From Phycisphaerales bacterium (GTDB taxonomy: Bacteria; Planctomycetota; Phycisphaerae; Phycisphaerales; UBA1924), in NCBI GenBank assembly GCA_020849615.1, contig JADLFW010000012.1:186001-250000 (forward strand): a stretch of 64,000 nucleotides of DNA, in the 5' to 3' direction. The stretch's first letter is position 1. Each line of letters opens with the position of its first letter. The position numbers and the translations under genes were made by a program. This document shows, one piece after another, positions 3,651 through 29,522 of this stretch. Under the pieces are notes generated by a model. The model was not told the DNA's origin. It did no database searches and worked only from the letters and a program-made list of their open reading frames with translations.

Positions 3651-4688
3651 TCAACTCAATTCCCCATCGCCCCCCGCAGATCCCGCAGAGACCCTCCGCC
3701 TCCACCTCGCGATAAGCCCTTCTGCGGCAGGAGGTTTGGAGTTACCCCGGCCCGGGCCAAGACCCAACTCGGCCGCCAGGCGGAGTCCCAGGGCCAGGAG
3801 CTCCCGCCGGGCCGGGCCTCGGGTTGATGCCTCGGCCAGCAGCGGACGCCGGGCCCGGATCGAACGCCGCACGCGCTCATCCTGCGAGATGACCCCCAAC
3901 AACACGGGGCTGCAGTGCAGAAACCGCTCGGCCACCGCGGAGAGCCGCGAGTACACAGTTGAGGCTTCCACCCTCGCGCAAGACTGGTTCACCACCAGCC
4001 CGATGCGCGGGCCGCGGCGCGCGCGGGACGCTGCCTCGGCGGCCCCGCGCATACGAATGCACTTCATCATCGCGTACGCATCGGCCATCGAGGTGGGCTC
4101 GGGCGTCACGACGACGATCGCCAGGTCCGCGGCGGTCGCGCACAAGGTGATCTCGGGCGCGACGCCCGCGCCGGTGTCCACGATTACCACGTCGCGCCGG
4201 GCCGCGAGCACGCGGAGCGCCTCTGCGAACCGGGCCCGGCCGCGCTGCGACTCATCGTGCAGCGCGTGCGCACCCACCGAGCCCGGCACCAGCCTGAACC
4301 CGCCCGGCGCGTCGATCTCGAGATCCGCGAGCTCGCGATCGGCCCTGTCGCCGAGGCGCCGCCCCGGCGCCAGCCCGCACATGACATCGGCGTTGGCCAG
4401 GCCCGGATCGGCATCAACCACCGTCACCCGGCAGCCCAGCCGGGACATGGCGATGCCGAGATTCACCGCGGTGAACGTCTTGCCGACCCCGCCCTTGCCC
4501 GAAGTGATGGCGACGATCCGGCCCGTCGGGGCGGGCACAGGTGGCGGGATGGCTTCGACCGGCCCGGCCGGGATCACGATCGTCCCGAGCATCAGCTCAT
4601 CCACGAGCTCGCGCAGCCGCGCTGCCTGGTCGGGCGGTGCCCCGCGCGGCGGCGCCGGCGGGTCGATCATCGAGGTGGTCACGCTCAC
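3651..4688 (-). CDS. flhG: MinD-like ATPase FlhG/FleN, flagellar number regulator
   Basis: 345 aa. A ParA/MinD-family ATPase that, with FlhF, controls flagellar number and position at the membrane. It has a deviant Walker A (SGKGGVGKTF, residues about 63-72), the switch segment VVDADPGLANADVM, and a DTGAGV switch II near residue 172. An N-terminal Pro-rich region of about 55 residues precedes the ATPase core. The start is a GTG (4688) overlapping the flhF stop by 4 nt (GTGA), so translation is probably coupled to flhF. The C-terminal part is Arg/Ala-rich and lacks an obvious MinD-type amphipathic end, as is usual for FlhG. Confidence 0.92.
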   Translation of the reverse strand: MSVTTSMIDPPAPPRGAPPDQAARLRELVDELMLGTIVIPAGPVEAIPPPVPAPTGRIVAITSGKGGVGKTFTAVNLGIAMSRLGCRVTVVDADPGLANADVMCGLAPGRRLGDRADRELADLEIDAPGGFRLVPGSVGAHALHDESQRGRARFAEALRVLAARRDVVIVDTGAGVAPEITLCATAADLAIVVVTPEPTSMADAYAMMKCIRMRGAAEAASRARRGPRIGLVVNQSCARVEASTVYSRLSAVAERFLHCSPVLLGVISQDERVRRSIRARRPLLAEASTRGPARRELLALGLRLAAELGLGPGRGNSKPPAAEGLIARWRRRVSAGSAGGDGELS

Positions 4689-6304
4689 GCCCCCACCGCC
4701 TCCGTGATCGGCGAATCCATCAGGATGCCCGGGATGACGCGCCGGGCCAGCCGGTCCGCGCTGGCGAGTTCGAGGTCATCCGGCACTTCCTGGCCCGTCG
4801 TGATGTAGCTGACCGGCAGCCCGGCCCGCGCCGGGACCGACGCGATCACGCCGAGCTGCACGGCCTCATCGAGCTTGGTGAGCAGCAGCCGGTCGGGCTC
4901 CAGGGCGCGGAATCGCTCGGCTGTCCGCATCAGCACGGCTTCGGTCGCGGTGGCGGCGAGAACCAGGTGCGTCTCGTGCGGCCGGGCGGCCCGGACGCTG
5001 GCCGAGAGTTCATCGAGCCGGGCCTGGTCGGTCGGCGAGCGGCCCGCGGTGTCGATGAGGACAACATCCATGTCCTTCATTTCCTCCATCCCCTCCGCAA
5101 GATCCTGAGCATCGGCCGCGACCTTGATCGGCAGGCCGATGATCCGGGCGTAGGTGCGGAGCTGCTCGACCGCGGCGATTCGGTAGGTGTCGGTCGTCAG
5201 CAGCCCGACGCGCTTGCCATGGCGGAGCTTGTACATCGCGGCGAGCTTGGCGATCGTCGTGGTCTTGCCGACGCCCGTCGGCCCGACCAGCGCGATCGTC
5301 AGCGGCCGACCGTCGGGTTGCCGCCCCGGCTTGCCGGGGGAGCGCACCACGGGGATCGCCTCGGCGAGCAGCCGGGCCAGCGTGCGGCGTACGAGGTCCG
5401 GGTCCTCCAGCTCCGGCGTTTCCAGTTCACCCTGAACACCCGCGAGCAGGCGGTCGGCCAGTTCGGGCGCGATCGCCGCGTCGAGCAGCGCTGAGTACGC
5501 CTCCCGGAGCACCTCGGTGACACCGCCTACGGGAGGGATGGGCATCCCCGATGCCAGCGGGCTTTCACCCCGAATCGCAGCCCGCCGCGAGAACTGGAGC
5601 ACCTGGCCCATCAGCCGCTTGATCGAGGAGAGTTCCTCCTCCAGCGAGGCCCGGGCCGCATCAGAAACCGGCGCTAGGGGCGCCTTGACCGCGAGCCGCG
5701 CGGGCCCGCGCGCTGGGGCCTGCGCCGGGGGCGTTGCGACCTCGGGGGGCGGTGGAGCAATCTCAATCTTCGCGATTTCTCCGGGCGCGACGACCTGCGG
5801 CTTTGCAGCCGGCGTGCGGATGGGAGCGGTGGGCTCGCTCTGGGCGATCACCGGCGCGGGATTCACCTCGGCCCGCGCGGGCGGCGCTTTGATCTCGACG
5901 GGCTTCCAAGACCGCTCCGCAGCTTCGGTATCGCCCATGAGCTGGCTGAACTCGAGCGGGGACCAGTCCTGATCGATTGCCGCGGCCCGCGCCGCCGGCT
6001 CCGGGCGCCGCTGCTGGGGCTGCGGCGCGGGCGGTGCGGATGCCGAGGCCCGCGCGACGACGGTCTTTACGGTCGGCGCCGCCTTGAGCTGCGATGTGGG
6101 CCGCTGGGGTTGGGCAGCGCGGCTCGGAGGGGCGGATGCGGGCGATGCGGTGATCTCGACGATCGCCCTGGCGCCCAGGCCCGCCCAGCCACCCGCCTTG
6201 ATGCTGCGGGTGTTTACGATGACGGCCTCGGAGCCGAGGTCTTTCTTGACCTCGGCCAGTGCCTGGGCCATGGTCGGAGCGCGATAGGTCTTGAGCGTCG
6301 TCAT
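4685..6304 (-). CDS. flhF: Flagellar placement SRP-like GTPase FlhF
   Basis: 539 aa. It directs flagellar assembly at the pole. An N-terminal piece (TYRAPTMAQALAEVKKDLG) matches FlhF. It is followed by a long Ala/Pro-rich linker (about residues 55-215), then the NG domain: G1 GPTGVGKTTT near 341-350, TTDTYRIAAVEQL, DTAGRSP, TKLDE, and a GQEVPDDLE C-terminus. I chose the ATG at 6304 rather than 6313 because the AAGGA at 6315-6319 is 8 nt upstream of it but almost touches the other. The leader carries a perfect 8-bp hairpin with GGA in its loop. It sits 122 nt after flhA. Confidence 0.93.
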   Translation of the reverse strand: MTTLKTYRAPTMAQALAEVKKDLGSEAVIVNTRSIKAGGWAGLGARAIVEITASPASAPPSRAAQPQRPTSQLKAAPTVKTVVARASASAPPAPQPQQRRPEPAARAAAIDQDWSPLEFSQLMGDTEAAERSWKPVEIKAPPARAEVNPAPVIAQSEPTAPIRTPAAKPQVVAPGEIAKIEIAPPPPEVATPPAQAPARGPARLAVKAPLAPVSDAARASLEEELSSIKRLMGQVLQFSRRAAIRGESPLASGMPIPPVGGVTEVLREAYSALLDAAIAPELADRLLAGVQGELETPELEDPDLVRRTLARLLAEAIPVVRSPGKPGRQPDGRPLTIALVGPTGVGKTTTIAKLAAMYKLRHGKRVGLLTTDTYRIAAVEQLRTYARIIGLPIKVAADAQDLAEGMEEMKDMDVVLIDTAGRSPTDQARLDELSASVRAARPHETHLVLAATATEAVLMRTAERFRALEPDRLLLTKLDEAVQLGVIASVPARAGLPVSYITTGQEVPDDLELASADRLARRVIPGILMDSPITEAVGA

Positions 6305-6310
6305 GAGCGC

Positions 6311-6353
6311 CATCCTTGGCTTGGCCTAGCAATGGCCCGGCATCCTGCCGGGC
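6311..6353 (-). promoter_or_regulatory. flhF leader: GGA-loop hairpin plus GGA-containing SD (candidate CsrA target)
   Basis: On the flhF transcript a perfect 8-bp stem (GCCCGGCA/TGCCGGGC, 6335-6353) has a GGA loop. The flhF Shine-Dalgarno, CAAGGATGG (6311-6319), matches the CsrA consensus core CARGGAUG. The two GGAs are 30 nt apart, as in known two-site CsrA targets. No T-run follows, so it is a poor terminator for flhA, although that remains an alternative. Confidence 0.4.
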
Positions 6354-6426
6354 AACCGAAGATGCGTACAGGTGTAACACCGCGCGGGCCCGGCCGCAAG
6401 CAGGCCCCGCTCCGCCGATGCACGAT

Positions 6427-8643
6427 TCATGCCGCCATCGCCGCCTCCCCCCGCGATTCGGCGGGCGGGGGCATGATGAGCGCCACGGACTCGACGTTGA
6501 CGCCGTTGACCACTTCGTTGTACCCCAGCACGGCGATGCCCGGCAGGTGGGGCTCGACGATCTGGCGGACGACGGCCCGGACCTGCGGGGAGGCGATGAT
6601 CACCGGCGCATGGCCCGCCGCGACCGCCGGCTGCAGGCCGCGGACGATCTGGTCGGCGACCCGCTTGGCGATCCGCGCCGGCATCGACACGGTCGTGCCC
6701 GATGCGCCGCGGTCGATGTAGGCGTTGATCTGCTCCTCGAGCGTGGGGTCGAGCGTGACGCAGACCAGCCGGAGGGCGCCCTGGTCATCCCGCCCGGCGT
6801 ACTGCCCGCAGATCGTGCGGCGGAGGGCCTTGCGGACGTACTCGGTGAGGACCTCGAGGTCCTTGGTCTTGGTGCCCCATTCCGACAGCGTTTCCAGGAC
6901 GGTTTCGAGGTCGCGGATGGGCACCCGCTCGCGGAGGAGGTTCTGCAGCAGCTTCTGGAGCTCGCCCGGCTTGATGACGGCGGGCACGGTCTCCTCCACC
7001 AGCTTGGGGGACTTCTCCCGGACCTGCTCGAGCAGGTTGTTGACCTCATCCCGGGTCAGCAGCTCATCGGCGTGGCGCTTCACGATCTCGGTCAGGTGCG
7101 TGGCCACGACGCTGGTGGGGTCGACGACGGTGTAGTTCATGGTCTCGGCCCGGGGACGCATCGCGGGGTCGATCCACCAGGCGCTCAGGCCGAAGGCGGG
7201 CTCGCGCGTCGGCTCGCCCTGCACCGGGCCCGAGGCGATCCCCGAGTCCATCGCCATCAGCTTGCCGGGCCTGAGCTGGCCCTGGGCGATCACATTCCCG
7301 CGGATCTTGATGCGGTAGTCGCCCGCCGGGAGCTGGATGTTGTCGCGGATCCGCACGGGGGGCATGACCAGACCCAGGTCGGCCGCGAGTTGGCGGCGCA
7401 CCGCGCTGATGCGGTCGAGGAGGTCGCCGCCCTGGGCGGCATCAACGAGCGCCACCAGCCCGTATCCGACCTCCAGCTCGAGCGTGTCGACCTTCAGGAG
7501 CGTCTCGACGGGTGGCGGCTCGGCCTTGGGGGCCGCCGCCTCGGCGGTGCTCGCCGCGGCGACCTCGCGCCGGGAGCGGTTCATCCAGTAGGCGATGAAC
7601 CCCAGCCCGCCGGCGGTCGCCAGCAGCGGCATCGTGGGCAGGGGCGTCAGGGCCAGCACGCACAGGAAGCCCGCGGTGATCACCAGCCCGCGCGGCTGGC
7701 TGGTGATCTGGTCGGTCAGTTCGCTGCCCAGCTGCGCCTTGGAGCCCGACCTCGTCACGATCAGGGCCGAGGCGATCGCGATCACGAACGAGGGGATCTG
7801 GGCGGTCAGCCCGTCGCCGATCGTCAGCTTGGTGAAGATCTCGGCGGTCTGGGCGGCGGGCCAGCCCCGCTCGATGACGCCGACCGCGAACCCGCCCAGC
7901 ACGTTGATCACCGTGATGATGATGCCCGCGACCGCATCGCCGCGGACGAACTTGCTGGCGCCGTCCATCGCGCCGAAGAAATCCGCCTCCTGCCCGACGC
8001 GTTCCCGCCGCCGCCGGGCCTCGGTTTCGTCGATCAGCCCGGCGTTCAGGTCGCTGTCGATCGCCATCTGCTTGCCCGGCATCGCATCGAGCGTGAACCG
8101 GGCCGCCACCTCGCTGATCCGGGTGGCGCCCTTGGTCACGACCACGAACTGCACGATGACCAGGATCAGGAAGATCACGATGCCCACGAAGAGCGAATCG
8201 CCCGCCACGAAATGGCCGAAGGCCATGATGACGTGGCCCGCCACCGCCATCGCCTCCTCGGGTGTGGAGGCATCCGCCGTCAGGATCAGGCGCGTCGAGG
8301 CGATGTTCAGCACCAGCCGCAGCAGCGTCGTCGCCAGCAGCAGCGACGGGAAGACGCTGAAATCCAGCGGGTGGTTCATGTAGATCGTGGTGAGCAGGAT
8401 GATCAGCCCGAGGCTGATGTTCATCGCGATCAGGATGTCCATCACGGCCGGGGGCACCGGCACCAGCAGCACGGCGAGCATGAGCACGAAGCCCAGCGGC
8501 GCGATCAGCCCGCGGTTGGCCTGCAGCTTGTGCAGCCACCCCGGCAGCACGATCGGCGCCGCCACGCCGGCGGCCACCGCGCCCTGGGGCGCGGGCCTCG
8601 CGCGGGGCTTGTTCATCGCGGGCCTGGCCGGCATCTTCGCCAT
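6427..8643 (-). CDS. flhA: Flagellar export gate protein FlhA
   Basis: 738 aa, normal length. Large inner-membrane component of the type III export gate that also docks chaperone-substrate complexes. The N-terminal half has about eight membrane segments and the FHIPEP-family block with ATRISEVAARFTLDAMPGKQ, GMDGASKFVRGDA and TIGDGLTAQIP. The C-terminal half is the cytosolic docking domain. A basic, Ala/Pro-rich stretch of about 30 residues precedes TM1. The start at ATG 8643 has GAGGAG 6 nt upstream. It lies 20 nt after flhB. Confidence 0.97.
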   Translation of the reverse strand: MAKMPARPAMNKPRARPAPQGAVAAGVAAPIVLPGWLHKLQANRGLIAPLGFVLMLAVLLVPVPPAVMDILIAMNISLGLIILLTTIYMNHPLDFSVFPSLLLATTLLRLVLNIASTRLILTADASTPEEAMAVAGHVIMAFGHFVAGDSLFVGIVIFLILVIVQFVVVTKGATRISEVAARFTLDAMPGKQMAIDSDLNAGLIDETEARRRRERVGQEADFFGAMDGASKFVRGDAVAGIIITVINVLGGFAVGVIERGWPAAQTAEIFTKLTIGDGLTAQIPSFVIAIASALIVTRSGSKAQLGSELTDQITSQPRGLVITAGFLCVLALTPLPTMPLLATAGGLGFIAYWMNRSRREVAAASTAEAAAPKAEPPPVETLLKVDTLELEVGYGLVALVDAAQGGDLLDRISAVRRQLAADLGLVMPPVRIRDNIQLPAGDYRIKIRGNVIAQGQLRPGKLMAMDSGIASGPVQGEPTREPAFGLSAWWIDPAMRPRAETMNYTVVDPTSVVATHLTEIVKRHADELLTRDEVNNLLEQVREKSPKLVEETVPAVIKPGELQKLLQNLLRERVPIRDLETVLETLSEWGTKTKDLEVLTEYVRKALRRTICGQYAGRDDQGALRLVCVTLDPTLEEQINAYIDRGASGTTVSMPARIAKRVADQIVRGLQPAVAAGHAPVIIASPQVRAVVRQIVEPHLPGIAVLGYNEVVNGVNVESVALIMPPPAESRGEAAMAA

Positions 8644-9725: not shown

Positions 9726-9799
9726 CGTCCGGCCTCCTGCCGCCTGTCATCCGAACCGGGCCCGGCTCCGCCGCGCCCCGATCACCGATCGCGATCCGC

Positions 9800-10868: not shown

Positions 10869-11882
10869 CTACCCCCAGACCGGCAGGAAGCCGGGAAGAA
10901 CGGACTGCCCCACCGCCGACGCCGTCAGCGCCGCCGGCCGGCCGAAGCTCGACATCAGGCTGCCCACGATCAGCTGCCATCCGTCCACCAGCACGAACAG
11001 CAGCAGCTTGAAGGGCAGGCTGATCAGCACCGGGGGCAGCATCATCATGCTCATCGAGATCAGCAGGCTGCTGATCACCATGTCGATGACCAGGAACGGC
11101 AGGTACACCTTGAATCCCATCAGGAACGCCGTCTTCAGCTCGCTCAGCATGAACGCCGGGATCAGCGAGATCATGTCCACATCGCCCCGCGTCAGCTTCT
11201 CCGGCTCGCTCACGTCGATGCCGCGGTAGTCGAGCACCATGTACAGGCTCGACCAGTTCCCCGTGGCCTCGATCTGCGTGAACATGAAGTCACGCACCGG
11301 CTCCCGGGCCCGGGCCCACAGCTGCTCGTGGTCGGTGATCACGCCGGCCCGGTAGGGCTGCAGCGCCTCGGTGTTGATCCGGTCGAGCGTCGGCGCCATC
11401 ACCAGCAGCGTCATGAACATCGCCAGCGCCACGATGACCTGCGGCGGCGGGATCGACTGCGCGCCCAGGGCCTGCTTCAGGAGCCCCAGCACCACGATGA
11501 TCCGCACGAAGCACGTCGTCATCAGCATGATCGACGGCGCCAGCGAGATCACCGTCAGCAGGATCAGCACGTTCAGGGCCGCGGAGAGCCCCTGCCCCGT
11601 CGGCGCCTCCGGGCCCGCGCCGCCCACAGCGCCCCGCAGGCCGCCGGGCCCGACCGACCGCACCGCGCCGTCCAGCACATCCAGCGGATTCAGGCTGAAC
11701 TCGGCCGGCACCCCGGGAACCGTCACCGGGCCCGCGCCGCTCGTGGGAAGCACGGCCCGGCCATCCACGATCGAAGGCAGGGGCGGGCCCGCCGGTTCCG
11801 CCAGGGCCACCGCATCGACGCTCAACACCGCGGCGATCGCCGCGACCCCGATCAGCTTCCACCCCCGGAAGTGGTTCCTCAT
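10869..11882 (-). CDS. fliP: Flagellar export gate protein FliP with long periplasmic N-terminus
   Basis: 337 aa. Core subunit of the export channel. A signal-peptide-like N-terminus (LIGVAAIAAVLSVDAVALA) is followed by an extracytoplasmic stretch of about 90 residues, then the FliP core: SIMLMTTCFVRIIVVLGLLKQ, ALAMFMTLLVMAP, and the paired C-terminal membrane hairpin ending LIVGSLMSSFG. The ATG at 11882 overlaps the fliO stop as ATGA and is preferred over the GTG at 11900. The N-terminal extension is longer than in Escherichia coli FliP (245 aa). Confidence 0.95.
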   Translation of the reverse strand: MRNHFRGWKLIGVAAIAAVLSVDAVALAEPAGPPLPSIVDGRAVLPTSGAGPVTVPGVPAEFSLNPLDVLDGAVRSVGPGGLRGAVGGAGPEAPTGQGLSAALNVLILLTVISLAPSIMLMTTCFVRIIVVLGLLKQALGAQSIPPPQVIVALAMFMTLLVMAPTLDRINTEALQPYRAGVITDHEQLWARAREPVRDFMFTQIEATGNWSSLYMVLDYRGIDVSEPEKLTRGDVDMISLIPAFMLSELKTAFLMGFKVYLPFLVIDMVISSLLISMSMMMLPPVLISLPFKLLLFVLVDGWQLIVGSLMSSFGRPAALTASAVGQSVLPGFLPVWG

Positions 11883-12652
11883 GCAGGAGCCCCCCGCCAC
11901 GCCGCCAGCCGGTCCCGCATGGACCGCACGGCCGGGCCGGCCCGCTCTGCCGGCTCATCCGGCCCGGCGCCTGTCGCCTCGTGCTCATTCTCGTAGCGTT
12001 CCAGCTCCACGCTGAACTTGGCTCCGCCGTGGCGATGCTCCTCGCACCGGGCCGAGATCGCGGCCACTTCCTCGGGGTCCGTCAACTCGGTCAGGGTCGC
12101 CAGCGCGGGCCCGCCCCGCGAGCCGACCGTCTGGGCCACCAGGAGCACTCGCCGGTCCAGCTTCAGCAGCAGCAGCGTCTGGCCCCGGGCCAGCGGATAC
12201 CGCCCGAGCACGGAGAGCACGCCGGAGGGCGCCCGCCCGCCCGGGCCCGCCGCGGCCATCAGGCCACCCTTGGCCCGCGCCCCTTGCCGGATCGCCTTGA
12301 AGACGATCAGGATCAGCGCGAGCACGAACCCCAGAGCCCCGGCAACTTGTCCGATTCCCACCGTCCGGGCCGGCGTGGCGCCGCTGGCTGGCCCGGCGGC
12401 GTCCGCATCGTCCACGCCTTCGATGCGGGCCCGCGCCCCGGCCGTAGGCAACCCCGCTCCGCCCAAGGGAAGGTGGTCCGACTTCACCGGCGCCGAATGC
12501 GCCGCGGATGGGGAGGCGTCGGCGGTCCGGGCCGATTCACCCGGGCCGGGCCCGGCGCTGGCGTTCACCGACAGCACGACCCCGCAGACCGCGCCGATGA
12601 TGGCGCGGCAGGCCCGTCCCCTGGTCCCCGGAATGACCGATCCGATGTTCAA
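11879..12652 (-). CDS. fliO: FliO-like flagellar export assembly protein
   Basis: 257 aa. FliO helps assemble the FliP ring. A signal-peptide-like N-terminus (AIIGAVCGVVLSVNASA) is followed by a variable extracytoplasmic segment, one membrane helix (about residues 107-124, LGFVLALILIVFKAI) and a cytosolic domain with the FliO pattern VLGRYPLARGQTLLLLKLDRRVLLVAQT. The assignment rests on this fold and on the position right before fliP (4-nt overlap). The start is apparently a TTG at 12652, preceded by AGGA. It is longer than most FliO proteins. Confidence 0.85.
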   Translation of the reverse strand: MNIGSVIPGTRGRACRAIIGAVCGVVLSVNASAGPGPGESARTADASPSAAHSAPVKSDHLPLGGAGLPTAGARARIEGVDDADAAGPASGATPARTVGIGQVAGALGFVLALILIVFKAIRQGARAKGGLMAAAGPGGRAPSGVLSVLGRYPLARGQTLLLLKLDRRVLLVAQTVGSRGGPALATLTELTDPEEVAAISARCEEHRHGGAKFSVELERYENEHEATGAGPDEPAERAGPAVRSMRDRLAAWRGAPA

Positions 12653-12734
12653 CGACGCGCCATCCTGGCTGGTTCGAACCCGAGTGGATTCGCGAGCGGG
12701 CTCCGCCGCTCACCGATCCGGAGTCGACGACGGA

Positions 12735-23220: not shown

Positions 23221-25092
23221 TCAGTGGGCCATGGTCTCGATGGTCTCGACCGAGATCCACTGTCCGACGATCTTGGCGGCGGTCTCGGGGCTGGAGTCGA
23301 CCATCTCGGCGACCATCTCGAGGACCTTCTGGGCCCGCATCTCCTCCTCGCCGACCTCGATGCCGGCGACGGCCAGCTCGCCCTCATCGGCCTCGCCGAT
23401 GATGTCGCTCTTGGCCTCCAGGGCCGGGGGCAGCCCGACCAGCTCCTCGGCGGTGGGCAACTCGACCTTGCGGGAGGCCTTGCGGACCATCATGAGCATC
23501 ATGCCCATGGCGACGAGGGCGAGCCCGCCCATGATCGCCTTGTCGATGATCCCGCCGCCGCCGAAGGCGATGCCGGTCGCGCCTCCGAGGCCCAGCACGC
23601 CGCCCGCCGCTGTGCCGCCGCCCGTCATGACCGGAACATCGACCGGCATGAGGGCGACCTTCACTTCACCCTGGATGACCTTGCCGTCGGTGGAGCGGGT
23701 CTTGAGGTGCGGGAGGATCGATTCCGAGATCCGGGCCTGCTCCTCGGCGAACTTGCGGTTGATCTCTTCCTCGGTCGGCGCCTTCTTGGCAGCGTCACCG
23801 CCGGACGAGGCCCCGCCCTGGCCGGGGGCCGAATCCGTGGCGGCCGCGCCGGCGGCGGCCTGCTGCAGGAGCCCGACGACGTAGCCGCGCGGGATGTTGA
23901 TGGAGGCGGCGAGCATGGTGGGCATGCCGCGGGGGTCCACGATGGTCTCCACCTTGGTGCCGACGTGGTTCTCGTACTCGACCTCACCCTCGGAGGTGTC
24001 GGTCTTGGAGCCCTGCCCGCCCCCGCCGCGGTTGATGTCGGCGGTCTGGTTGGAGCGCACGCCCGGCTCGGAGGATGAGGAGGACTCCGACTGCTTCATG
24101 GTGGAGTCCATGGTGCGTCGGGGCAGCGAGACGGTGCCATCCCCGTCGCTCATGTTTCGCTGGACCTTGGCGTTGACCTGCGTGACATCGACCTGCGCCG
24201 TGACGGCGACGATGACGCCGGGGATGTAGCCCAGCAGCTCCTGCAGCTTCTCGCGGGTCTGGGCCTCGACTTTGGCCGCGTGCTCGAGGTAGGTGGTGGG
24301 CAGCGATTCGCCGTCGCTGGTGGCCTTGCGCTGGCGGCCGCTGGAGCCGTCGATCACGCGGACGCGGTCGAGCTCGAGCCCGGCCCGGGAGCCGGCGACG
24401 AACTGGGCGATCGCGTCGACGGTGCCCTGGGCGAGGGGCGAGCCCGAGGCGGTGAAGACGGTGACGGAGGCGGTGGGCTTGCGGACCGTTCGGCCCAGCC
24501 CGGCGACCTCGGGGATGTCGAGGATCACCGCGGCGGAGCGGACATCCTTGAACTTGGAGATGGTGCCGGCCAGCTCGTTCTGGAGGGCGATCGTGTAGAG
24601 CTGGTCGTTCTGCTGGCGGGACATCTGCCAGCTCTGCTTGTCCAGGATGTTCTGGAACATGATCGACGTGTCGGTGGGGAGCATCCTCGACTCGGCGAGC
24701 TGCGCGATCGCGGTGCGCTGGGCCTCGCGGGGCACCATGATCTTGCCGTTGTCGCTGCGGACCTCGATGTTGGCGGCCTCGAGGAACTGGATGACCCGCT
24801 GCTGGTCCCCCGTGCCGCCCGACGCAAAGAGCTCGACCATGGTGGTCCTGCCCGCGTACTGCGTCACGATGAAGAAGGCCATCAGCGCGATGACGGCGAC
24901 CGAGCCGATCAGCAGCCGCTGCGTCAGGCCCAGCTGGCCGAGGTACTTCTGGATGGTCGCGAGAACTCTGCGCAACTGATCCAAGGGGTCGGCCTCCTGC
25001 CGGGCTGCGGGACGCGATCCTCGCGTCCCCTGAACCGGTGTGAGGCCGCTCGCGGCCCGGACCGGTGCGCCCATTCCTTCGGCCGCGCGCAT
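23221..25092 (-). CDS. fliF: Flagellar MS-ring protein FliF
   Basis: 623 aa. Builds the MS ring in the inner membrane. TM1 is at about residues 60-78. It is followed by the ring-building motifs (AEAANIEVR-type segment, GRTVRKPTASVTVF, and LPTTYLEHAAKVEAQTREKLQELLGYIPGVIVAVTAQVDVTQ), a spacer rich in Ser/Gly, TM2 at about 530-552 and the FliG-binding acidic C-terminus. ATG 25092 gives an N-terminal cytosolic stretch of about 50 residues. The first Arg-rich residues could be untranslated if a later start is used. Confidence 0.95.
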   Translation of the reverse strand: MRAAEGMGAPVRAASGLTPVQGTRGSRPAARQEADPLDQLRRVLATIQKYLGQLGLTQRLLIGSVAVIALMAFFIVTQYAGRTTMVELFASGGTGDQQRVIQFLEAANIEVRSDNGKIMVPREAQRTAIAQLAESRMLPTDTSIMFQNILDKQSWQMSRQQNDQLYTIALQNELAGTISKFKDVRSAAVILDIPEVAGLGRTVRKPTASVTVFTASGSPLAQGTVDAIAQFVAGSRAGLELDRVRVIDGSSGRQRKATSDGESLPTTYLEHAAKVEAQTREKLQELLGYIPGVIVAVTAQVDVTQVNAKVQRNMSDGDGTVSLPRRTMDSTMKQSESSSSSEPGVRSNQTADINRGGGGQGSKTDTSEGEVEYENHVGTKVETIVDPRGMPTMLAASINIPRGYVVGLLQQAAAGAAATDSAPGQGGASSGGDAAKKAPTEEEINRKFAEEQARISESILPHLKTRSTDGKVIQGEVKVALMPVDVPVMTGGGTAAGGVLGLGGATGIAFGGGGIIDKAIMGGLALVAMGMMLMMVRKASRKVELPTAEELVGLPPALEAKSDIIGEADEGELAVAGIEVGEEEMRAQKVLEMVAEMVDSSPETAAKIVGQWISVETIETMAH

Positions 25093-27964: not shown

Positions 27965-28962
27965 GCCGCCTCCAGCGCCGCGCGGGCGCGATCAGGGGTC
28001 TGGACCACCAGCGCGACCCCGGGAACCGGGGCCTCCGCCGAGTTGCGTTCGGGGAACATCAGTTCGAAGACCGCGCCGCCCGCCGGGCTGTTGCCGACCC
28101 AGACGCGGCCGCCGTGCGCATCCATGATCCGGTGCACGATCGCCAGGCCCAGCCCGGTGCCGGCCCGGCGCGTCGTGAAGAACGGGTTGAACATCCGGCC
28201 CAGCACCTCTTCCGAGATGCCGGGCCCGGTGTCGGCGATCCGGATCGCCGCGGCGGCGACCGAGCGGCCGGCGGGGATCGTGATCTCGGCGGCGCGGAAA
28301 GCCAGCGTCAGGCGCGCGGGCTGCACGCGGGTTTCGGCCATGGCCTCGATCGCGTTTCGGATGATGTTGACCAGCGCCTGCTGCACGAGGCCCGGATCGG
28401 CCTCGATGCCCGCGGCCTCATCAATACCCTCCCACTCGACCTGCACGTGCTGCCAGCCCGCGAGGCTGTCGTGGCGGCAGGCCTCGAGCGATCGCTCCAG
28501 CAGGTCGCGTACGCCGATCGGCTCGGGGTGGATTTTCATCTCGCGGGCGAAGCTCAGCACATCCCCCACCACCGTGTCGAGGCCCTTGGCCGCGGCGTCG
28601 ATCCGCCGAACGATCTCCAGCTCCGGGGTCCGGTCGGCCAGGTCCTGCTGCAGCATGCGGGCGTAGAGCCGGATGCACCCCAGCGGGTTGCGCACCTCGT
28701 GCGCGATGCCCGCGGCCATCTCGCCCAGCGCCGCGAGGCGCCGCGAGCGCTCGAGCTGCTGATTGGCCTCTCCCAGCTCCCTGGTCAGCCTCGCCACCTC
28801 GCCGCGGAGCTGCTCGTGCGTGCCCTGCAGCCGGGCCGTCACTTCGTTGAATGCGCCGATCAGCTCGGCCAGCTCGCGGGCATCACCGCGAGATGGCCGC
28901 GGTTCGCCGGCGGCATCCGGGCCCGGCAATTCGCCGGTGACAGGTTCGCTCGTCACGCTCAA
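27961..28962 (-). CDS. Soluble histidine kinase (FlrB-like) paired with the sigma-54 regulator
   Basis: 333 aa. No membrane segment. An N-terminal coiled region (about residues 30-75) replaces a sensor. The H box is MAAGIAHEVRNPLG with H88; the N box is NIIRNAIEAM, then DTGPGISEEVLGRMFNPFFTTRRAGTGLGLAIVHRI (G1, F and G2 boxes). Flagellar FlrB/FleS kinases are likewise cytosolic. It overlaps the flgN-like gene upstream and the regulator downstream by 4 nt each, so the three are one unit. The cue is unknown and may be a basal-body assembly checkpoint. Confidence 0.9.
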
Positions 28963-29492
28963 CCCTCCCGATCCTGGAAGCGGGCCTGCGGCCCGGCCCC
29001 CGGTGCGCCCGACGTCCCGGGCGCCCCGTACGCCGCGAACGCCTTGCGCGACCTCGTCAGCGAAACCATCTCGTCGGCGATCTCATCCCGGCGCGATTCC
29101 AGCCGCCGACGGTCATCCTCATCGCGCGCCGCGACCTGCGCGGCCAGCGCCGTCACCTCCGCGAGCACCAGCCGGATATGCTCGCGCTCATCCGGTGAAA
29201 CTTCGTGGCTGACCCTCTCCCAGTCGCGGCGGGCCGGCTCGAGCTTCCTCTGCGCGTGGTCCAGGAGATCGATCACCGACTGGCGCTCCGCGAGGACCGC
29301 GAGCAGCCCGTCGGTGTCGTCCGCCTCGATGTGCTCGGATTGCCGCCGGGCCAGCCCGTCAAGCTGCACGTACAGCCGGCGGTGCTCATCGAGCAGCGTC
29401 ACCACCTGACGGAACACGGCCATCACGCGGGGATCCCCGATGCCGCGCCGCGGCGAGCCGGGCGAACTGGATGTCGATTGCGGACTGGTCAT
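28959..29492 (-). CDS. flgN: FlgN-like flagellar chaperone
   Basis: 177 aa. FlgN holds hook-associated proteins FlgK and FlgL before export. The protein is almost wholly helical (LLDEHRRLYVQLDGLARRQSEHIEADDTDGLLAVLAERQSVIDLL), the typical FlgN layout, with a Pro/Gly-rich tail. The call is by structure and context since FlgN sequences vary, and a FliT-like role is possible. ATG 29492 is chosen over the frame's upstream codons because AAAGGG precedes it. Its leader carries a GGA-loop hairpin. FlgK and FlgL themselves are not in the window. Confidence 0.65.
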   Translation of the reverse strand: MTSPQSTSSSPGSPRRGIGDPRVMAVFRQVVTLLDEHRRLYVQLDGLARRQSEHIEADDTDGLLAVLAERQSVIDLLDHAQRKLEPARRDWERVSHEVSPDEREHIRLVLAEVTALAAQVAARDEDDRRRLESRRDEIADEMVSLTRSRKAFAAYGAPGTSGAPGAGPQARFQDREG

Positions 29493-29522
29493 CCTGACCC
29501 TTTCACCGGCGCTCCGCGCCGG
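29493..29522 (-). promoter_or_regulatory. flgN leader: GGA-loop hairpin and GGA at the start codon (candidate CsrA target)
   Basis: A perfect 7-bp stem (CCGGCGC/GCGCCGG, 29506-29522) has a GGA loop on the transcript. A second GGA (29493-29495) abuts the AUG, giving CAGGAUG. The two GGAs are 20 nt apart. The hairpin also lies 25 nt past the stop of the TPR gene, so it could instead be that gene's terminator, though no T-run follows. Confidence 0.35.

Follow-up and report, generated by a model that had tools for sequence, protein, structure and literature searches.

A candidate two-site CsrA target in the flhF leader of a Phycisphaerales bacterium, with counterparts at other flagellar genes

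How might translation of flhF be controlled in a Phycisphaerales bacterium in which the gene is preceded by a hairpin that displays GGA in its loop? In the 64,000-nucleotide stretch of DNA analysed here (the window), flhF occupies positions 4685..6304 of the minus strand, downstream of flhA, whose stop lies at 6427 on the same strand. Within the gap between the two genes, minus-strand positions 6353-6335 read GCCCGGCA-GGA-TGCCGGGC, a perfect 8-bp inverted repeat with GGA as its loop, and the pattern of this repeat (GCCCGGCANNNTGCCGGGC) occurs only once in the 4.57-Mb genome. A second GGA follows 30 nt beyond the first on the same strand, where positions 6318-6310 read CAAGGATGG. A first-pass annotation had singled out both features and had proposed from them that the flhF leader is a candidate target of CsrA with two binding sites.

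The second of these sites overlaps the signals for translation initiation in the window (CAAGGAUG). The segment at 6309-6320, GCCAAGGATGGC, includes the Shine-Dalgarno (SD) sequence CAAGGA together with an exact copy of CARGGAUG, the consensus core recognised by CsrA. CAAGGA is assigned to the ATG at 6304 because the conserved part of FlhF starts at residue 2-4 of the reading frame opened by that codon; the ATG inside GGATGG (6313), which is in frame with flhF, could also serve as a start. Written as RNA, site 1 (6335..6353, minus strand) is the hairpin GCCCGGC-AGGAU-GCCGGGC, with its GGA at 6345-6343, and site 2 (6309..6320, minus strand) is GCC-AAGGAU-GGC, situated over the Shine-Dalgarno sequence and the alternative ATG, with its GGA at 6315-6313. 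One CsrA dimer can bridge sites separated by about 10-63 nt, a range within which the 30-nt spacing of the window falls.

A hairpin that arose by chance next to an ordinary Shine-Dalgarno sequence would account for much of this description. Hairpins are frequent in DNA of high G+C content, the stability of the whole flhF leader is no greater than that of its shuffled versions (z 0.43), and short motifs taken alone occur in the window at chance level, with 1 instance of GCCANGGANGGC observed against 0.72 expected and 4 of GCAGGAYGC against 3.96. The minimum-energy fold of the window's leader, a prediction from a single sequence, forms the upstream hairpin and pairs the SD site otherwise, with no 3-bp hairpin there. 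Likewise, a search of positions 5900-6700 against Rfam gave no family match on the leader, the one sub-threshold match lying elsewhere, at 6442-6521. What is informative in such a leader is the combination of motifs and its comparison among relatives, rather than counts of short motifs or the folding energy of the whole.

As the genus yielded only the genome of the window itself, the comparison was extended to the GTDB family. From 61 family genomes, each of a different genus, 55 flhF leaders were obtained, one per genome; two copies of the window's own leader (L034, L066) and a second contig of genome G008 (L063) were left out. Five of the 61 genomes (G024, G025, G031, G033 and G036) gave only weak matches of the SRP-type GTPase kind and no flhF-like match, and one (G046), with no FlhF N-terminus, was also left out. 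In 54 of the 55 leaders, a 3-bp Watson-Crick stem around A(N)GGAN is found at the Shine-Dalgarno site. This stem stops sharply at three pairs, a fourth being rare (6/40 and 3/14 leaders), and in three leaders (L045, L052 and L062) it is kept by means of changed pairs. Upstream of the SD element, a hairpin with a GGA loop and at least 5 perfect pairs is present in 26 of the 55 leaders, whereas 200 shuffles give 1.1 on average and never more than 6, and among all 64 trinucleotides GGA ranks first in such upstream loops. The remaining 29 leaders are without a perfect 5-bp upstream GGA hairpin, and 18 of the 55 are without an upstream CA(N)GGANG core; in the 37 leaders with that core, the distance from GGA to GGA has a median of 26 nt and ranges from 18 to 65.

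The conservation of the upstream stem involves its pairing. For an analysis of covariation, the 33 leaders with upstream CAGGANG were selected regardless of pairing and aligned on that motif. Standard pairs fill 84.8% of the cells of the 7-pair stem, and pairing falls to 34-45% when the partner is slid by 1-3 columns. Cells in which both bases of a pair have changed number 59 (21.7 in shuffled data), and the covariation score is 0.616 (0.167 in shuffled data), values that none of 500 shuffles reaches; the innermost C-G pair, fixed by the selection of rows, contributes nothing to covariation. By hand count, the base after GGA is T in 17 of these leaders, C in 10, G in 5 and A in 1. Since the A-U pair is not conserved, site 1 is best described as 7 bp closing an AGGAN loop, not as 8 bp around GGA: the perfect 8-bp hairpin of the first-pass annotation exists in the window, but across relatives it is the shorter stem with the larger loop that persists. 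The expectation that stem, loop GGA and Shine-Dalgarno GGA would be kept among relatives was borne out, the stem through compensatory changes. As judged from these alignments, the upstream flhF element is under selection as an RNA structure with a fixed loop sequence, its arms varying and its loop constant. A covariance model (R1) built on 16 relatives' flhF leaders, from which the window's own was excluded, returns the flhF leader of the window as its top match in its own genome (E 7.4e-5), with nothing else below E 0.07. The chance reading was rejected, as it is already refuted by the comparison of the 55 leaders; the 54 SD elements, the excess of upstream GGA hairpins far above shuffles, the covariation and the uniqueness of the repeat pattern in the genome all stand against it, and its probability is close to nil.

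The same comparison bears on two further readings of the hairpin. A perfect inverted repeat in an intergenic gap is also what one would expect of a transcription factor's palindromic binding site in the DNA between flhA and flhF. A protein-bound palindrome would conserve its arms, however, whereas here the arms vary freely with pairing kept and the loop is constant on one strand; the second element, moreover, overlaps the Shine-Dalgarno sequence. The positions of promoters in relatives also place the hairpin inside the transcript. With a looser threshold, sigma-70-like promoters are found upstream of the hairpin in 19 of the 55 family leaders, as against 2.5 in shuffles, and their -10 element mostly ends 13-43 nt ahead of the hairpin core. 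A DNA-level role is accordingly very improbable. Examples of such promoters, of the type TTGACG, 17 nt, CACAAT, are seen in L021, L025, L028 and L040. From these relatives, the promoter sequences suggest that flhF may have a transcript of its own that starts just upstream of site 1; no recognisable promoter is found at the flhF leader in the window. Another possibility, that a G+C-rich stem soon after the flhA stop serves as an intrinsic terminator or as a general mRNA-end hairpin, is scarcely credible, as no T run follows the stem, a terminator scan finds none on the minus strand, the loop GGA is conserved and an SD element lies at short range after the stem.

The architecture is not confined to flhF, a point that goes beyond what the first-pass annotation had observed. 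A strict rule was applied, which demands a 3-bp stem around A(N)GGAN with a nearby start codon opening a reading frame of at least 80 aa and, within 90 nt upstream, a GGA hairpin with 5 or more perfect pairs. In the 64-kb window it selects four two-site leaders, all on the minus strand and all flagellar, at flhF, fliO, fliF and a flgN-like gene. Over 1.93 Mb elsewhere in the genome it selects 10, one of them flagellin, and several of the others look to be in spurious reading frames; this difference in density again speaks against chance. A looser rule recovers the same four leaders in the window, against 0-1 per window in 20 shuffled windows. At the fliO-like gene (11879..12652, TTG start), which is named from its place between fliN and fliP and has no Pfam match, site 1 is GAGCGG-CGGAGC-CCGCTC (12694..12711) and site 2, at the Shine-Dalgarno sequence, is GCC-AGGAU-GGC (12659..12669), all on the minus strand. 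At fliF, also on the minus strand, site 1 is GGGACGCGA-GGA-UCGCGUCCC (25009..25029) and site 2 is GGC-AGGAG-GCC (24991..25001), again at the Shine-Dalgarno sequence; the coding sequence runs over 23221..24984 from a likely TTG start, placed at 24984 because homology and the SD element both put it there. The listed fliF reading frame begins about 36 codons too early (24985-25092). The flgN-like gene (28959..29492, minus strand) matches PF05130 with E 6.5e-7 and 30.3 bits against a cut-off of 30.5, and its leader has CCGGCGC-GGA-GCGCCGG as site 1 (29506..29522, minus strand) and GUC-AGGAU-GAC, with the ATG start within it, as site 2 (29488..29498, minus strand). At flhB, the SD element GGC-AGGAG-GCC (9731..9741, minus strand) is preceded by a hairpin of just 4 bp, and flhB is thus a doubtful member of the set. 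Outside the window, about 7 kb before it, a two-site leader is also seen at a gene for a 268-aa lipoprotein-like protein (G000:C12, about 178939 on the plus strand; L256 position 18939).

These additional leaders are conserved to different degrees in the family. For fliF, sampled in 30 of the 56 genomes with a match, the window's among them, the SD element GGC-A(N)GGAN-GCC (once with GAC/GTC) is present in 27, and in 17 the hairpin upstream has 5 or more pairs, as against 1.0 in shuffles. For fliO, the SD element is present at 16 of 20 operon loci, and at those 16 the upstream GGA hairpin has at least 4 pairs in every case and at least 5 in 14, many of its loops being CGGAG, without the preferred A. 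For the flgN-like gene, sampled in 30 of 51 genomes with a match, an in-frame SD element is found in 21, and in 20 of these it reads GTC-A(N)GGAT-GAC and includes the ATG. The flagellin sample consists of 28 of 30 loci (L077 and L083, without a flagellin start, were left out); an SD stem of at least 3 bp is present in 24 of the 28 leaders, and the upstream hairpin of at least 5 pairs is weakly conserved (4/28, against 0.64 in shuffles). At the same 20 operon loci, the neighbouring genes serve as controls, with the SD element found at fliP in 0, fliQ in 0, fliR in 1, flhB in 1, flhA in 4 and fliN in 5. The flhA of one relative (L108) has a two-site leader of its own, CGAGCGC-AGGAC-GCGCTCG followed by GCC-AGGAT-GGC. 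Stem sequences are specific to each gene (GCC/GGC, GGC/GCC, GTC/GAC, ATC/GAT) and the loop is constant, a pattern that points to a single factor that reads the loop.

The genome of the window encodes the factor that the first-pass annotation had in mind. Two csrA genes exceed the search cut-off (E 8.8e-24 on contig C13 and E 5.6e-13 on C3), with PF02599 as the CsrA family in Pfam, and a single fliW adjoins one of them. The gene order on C13 is flgL, fliW, csrA, flagellin, with flgL and flagellin identified by eye from sequence, not by family search. The leader of this flagellin, downstream of fliW-csrA, carries ATC-ACGGAG-GAT over its Shine-Dalgarno sequence. The CsrA encoded on C13 has 118 aa with a long tail past the core, its best PDB match (5dmb_D) covering residues 2-65. 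The second CsrA (G000:C3:46049-46213, minus strand; L065) is shorter, at 77 aa, and divergent, with a GDPRNPLG stretch, and a weaker CsrA match of this kind is found again in nearly all 61 family genomes. Across the family, csrA is present in 61 of 61 genomes and fliW in 60. The exception is G022 (leader L048), in which no fliW was detected and the weaker CsrA match is the sole one, yet both flhF sites are intact; the assembly may have a gap, or the second CsrA may be the one in use.

Beyond the family, the distribution of the motif is uneven. Among 80 named flhF loci, 73 have a readable leader; as several genomes are common to both, this set is not independent of the family set. Of the 73 leaders, 38 show A(N)GGAN enclosed by 3 bp no more than 60 nt from the start, and 16 of these 38, but none of the others, also have a GGA hairpin with 5 or more pairs upstream. 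The motif is absent from most flhF loci titled Phycisphaeraceae (ZRK34-like, Algisphaera), Sedimentisphaerales and Planctomycetia, and because most loci of these other groups are without it, it seems to have arisen within a single planctomycete branch. csrA was found in 27 of 28 named planctomycete genomes tested, whether or not the motif is present; since most of the sampled motif-less genomes also carry csrA, its presence does not predict the motif. Five motif-less leaders (L190, L206, L208, L209 and L213) have a different sequence in common, similar to TTACAAGGGG, ahead of a TTG start, which may reflect a distinct mode of control.

That csrA also occurs in genomes without the motif, and that G022 keeps the motif with only the weaker CsrA and no fliW, is in keeping with a different reading, in which a conserved RNA element that shields the Shine-Dalgarno sequence is read by some factor other than CsrA, such as another RNA-binding protein, a small RNA or temperature. 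Covariation and Shine-Dalgarno overlap reveal an RNA structure and not its ligand. The invariant part of the element, A(N)GGA, is nevertheless the loop of CsrA targets, and an ANGGAN hexaloop is a described target of RsmE (PMC7652899). Moreover, the flagellin leader behind fliW-csrA bears the same element, and a thermometer would have no need of a constant loop. A reader other than CsrA is therefore considered unlikely, and the flhF leader is, with high probability, a two-site CsrA target, probably relieved by FliW, and one of a predicted flagellar set that comprises flhF, fliF, fliO, the flgN-like gene and flagellin, a reading drawn from sequence comparison and from analogy with described systems. 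The candidate target proposed in the first-pass annotation is in this sense supported, with conserved sites and compensatory stem changes behind it and with CsrA binding itself a prediction.

The two-site CsrA leader as a kind is already known, and the comparisons that follow concern the available parts of the papers cited. The closest match is the flaA leader of Campylobacter jejuni, in which two ANGGA stem-loops, the second over the ribosome-binding site, show compensatory changes (PMC4894983); the architecture is that of the flhF leader, and csrA is likewise accompanied by fliW as antagonist. There the target is flagellin, whereas here flhF, fliF, fliO and the flgN-like gene carry the element. 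In the same organism, fliF mRNA was enriched 6.1x and 7.8x with CsrA, so that fliF is not a wholly new CsrA target, and fliO was not (1.4x, 0.7x); flhF and flgN are unnamed in the main text (PMC4894983). Other CsrA-bound flagellar leaders of C. jejuni changed little upon deletion of csrA, which counts against the reading given here (PMC4894983). The hag system of Bacillus subtilis shares the grouping of fliW, csrA and flagellin, two CsrA sites with one over the Shine-Dalgarno sequence, and a CsrA tail beyond the core, as in the C13 protein; its described output is flagellin, whereas in the present family the element is also found at genes of flagellum initiation (PMC7652899). Escherichia coli glgC resembles flhF in having a high-affinity GGA hairpin just upstream of a Shine-Dalgarno site, with one dimer bridging the two, but it is a metabolic target and the antagonists are the CsrB/C RNAs rather than FliW (PMC7652899). 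The fleQ leader of Legionella pneumophila has, like that of flhF, two A(N)GGA loops with one at the ribosome-binding site of a flagellar gene, but FleQ is a transcription regulator and not a placement GTPase, and flhF is unnamed in the main text (PMC5338858). Among the titles and abstract openings listed from the open-licence literature, supplements excluded, no description was found of CsrA control of flhF, fliO or flgN, nor any CsrA target for planctomycetes, an absence that carries little weight, and the available parts of PMC9927453, PMC5338858, PMC8036289, PMC4054197, PMC11607428 and PMC11187230 contain none either. This agrees with the first-pass annotation, which knew of no described CsrA control of planctomycete flhF.

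Repression of flhF by CsrA is proposed because the geometry of its leader matches that of the described two-site leaders of glgC, hag and C. jejuni flaA. The AGGAU loop of the upstream flhF hairpin would be bound by one face of a CsrA dimer, and the A(N)GGAN element that spans the Shine-Dalgarno sequence and start by the other, which would block ribosome binding. By analogy with Bacillus and Campylobacter, CsrA would repress flhF translation and FliW would relieve that repression, with accumulated flagellin titrating FliW. When flagellin backs up, CsrA would thus lower the production both of flagellin and of the proteins needed for placing and initiating further flagella.

The role described for FliW-CsrA is chiefly that of a thermostat for flagellin. 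FlhF acts in flagellar placement, FliF forms the first ring and FliO belongs to the export gate, and the balance tips slightly towards a wider arrangement in which the FliW-CsrA switch of this family is wired to the initiation and number of flagella, through FlhF, FliF, FliO, the FlgN-like chaperone and flagellin, each with a two-hairpin leader of its own in which the stems are exchanged and the A(N)GGAN loop is constant, so that unsecreted flagellin would prevent the initiation of new flagella. The result would be a planctomycete set of CsrA targets predicted from sequence. If flhF, fliF and fliO are on the same switch, the status of flagellin export would in turn affect both the onset and the site of a new flagellum and, if true, this would provide a testable link to how these bacteria set the number of their flagella.
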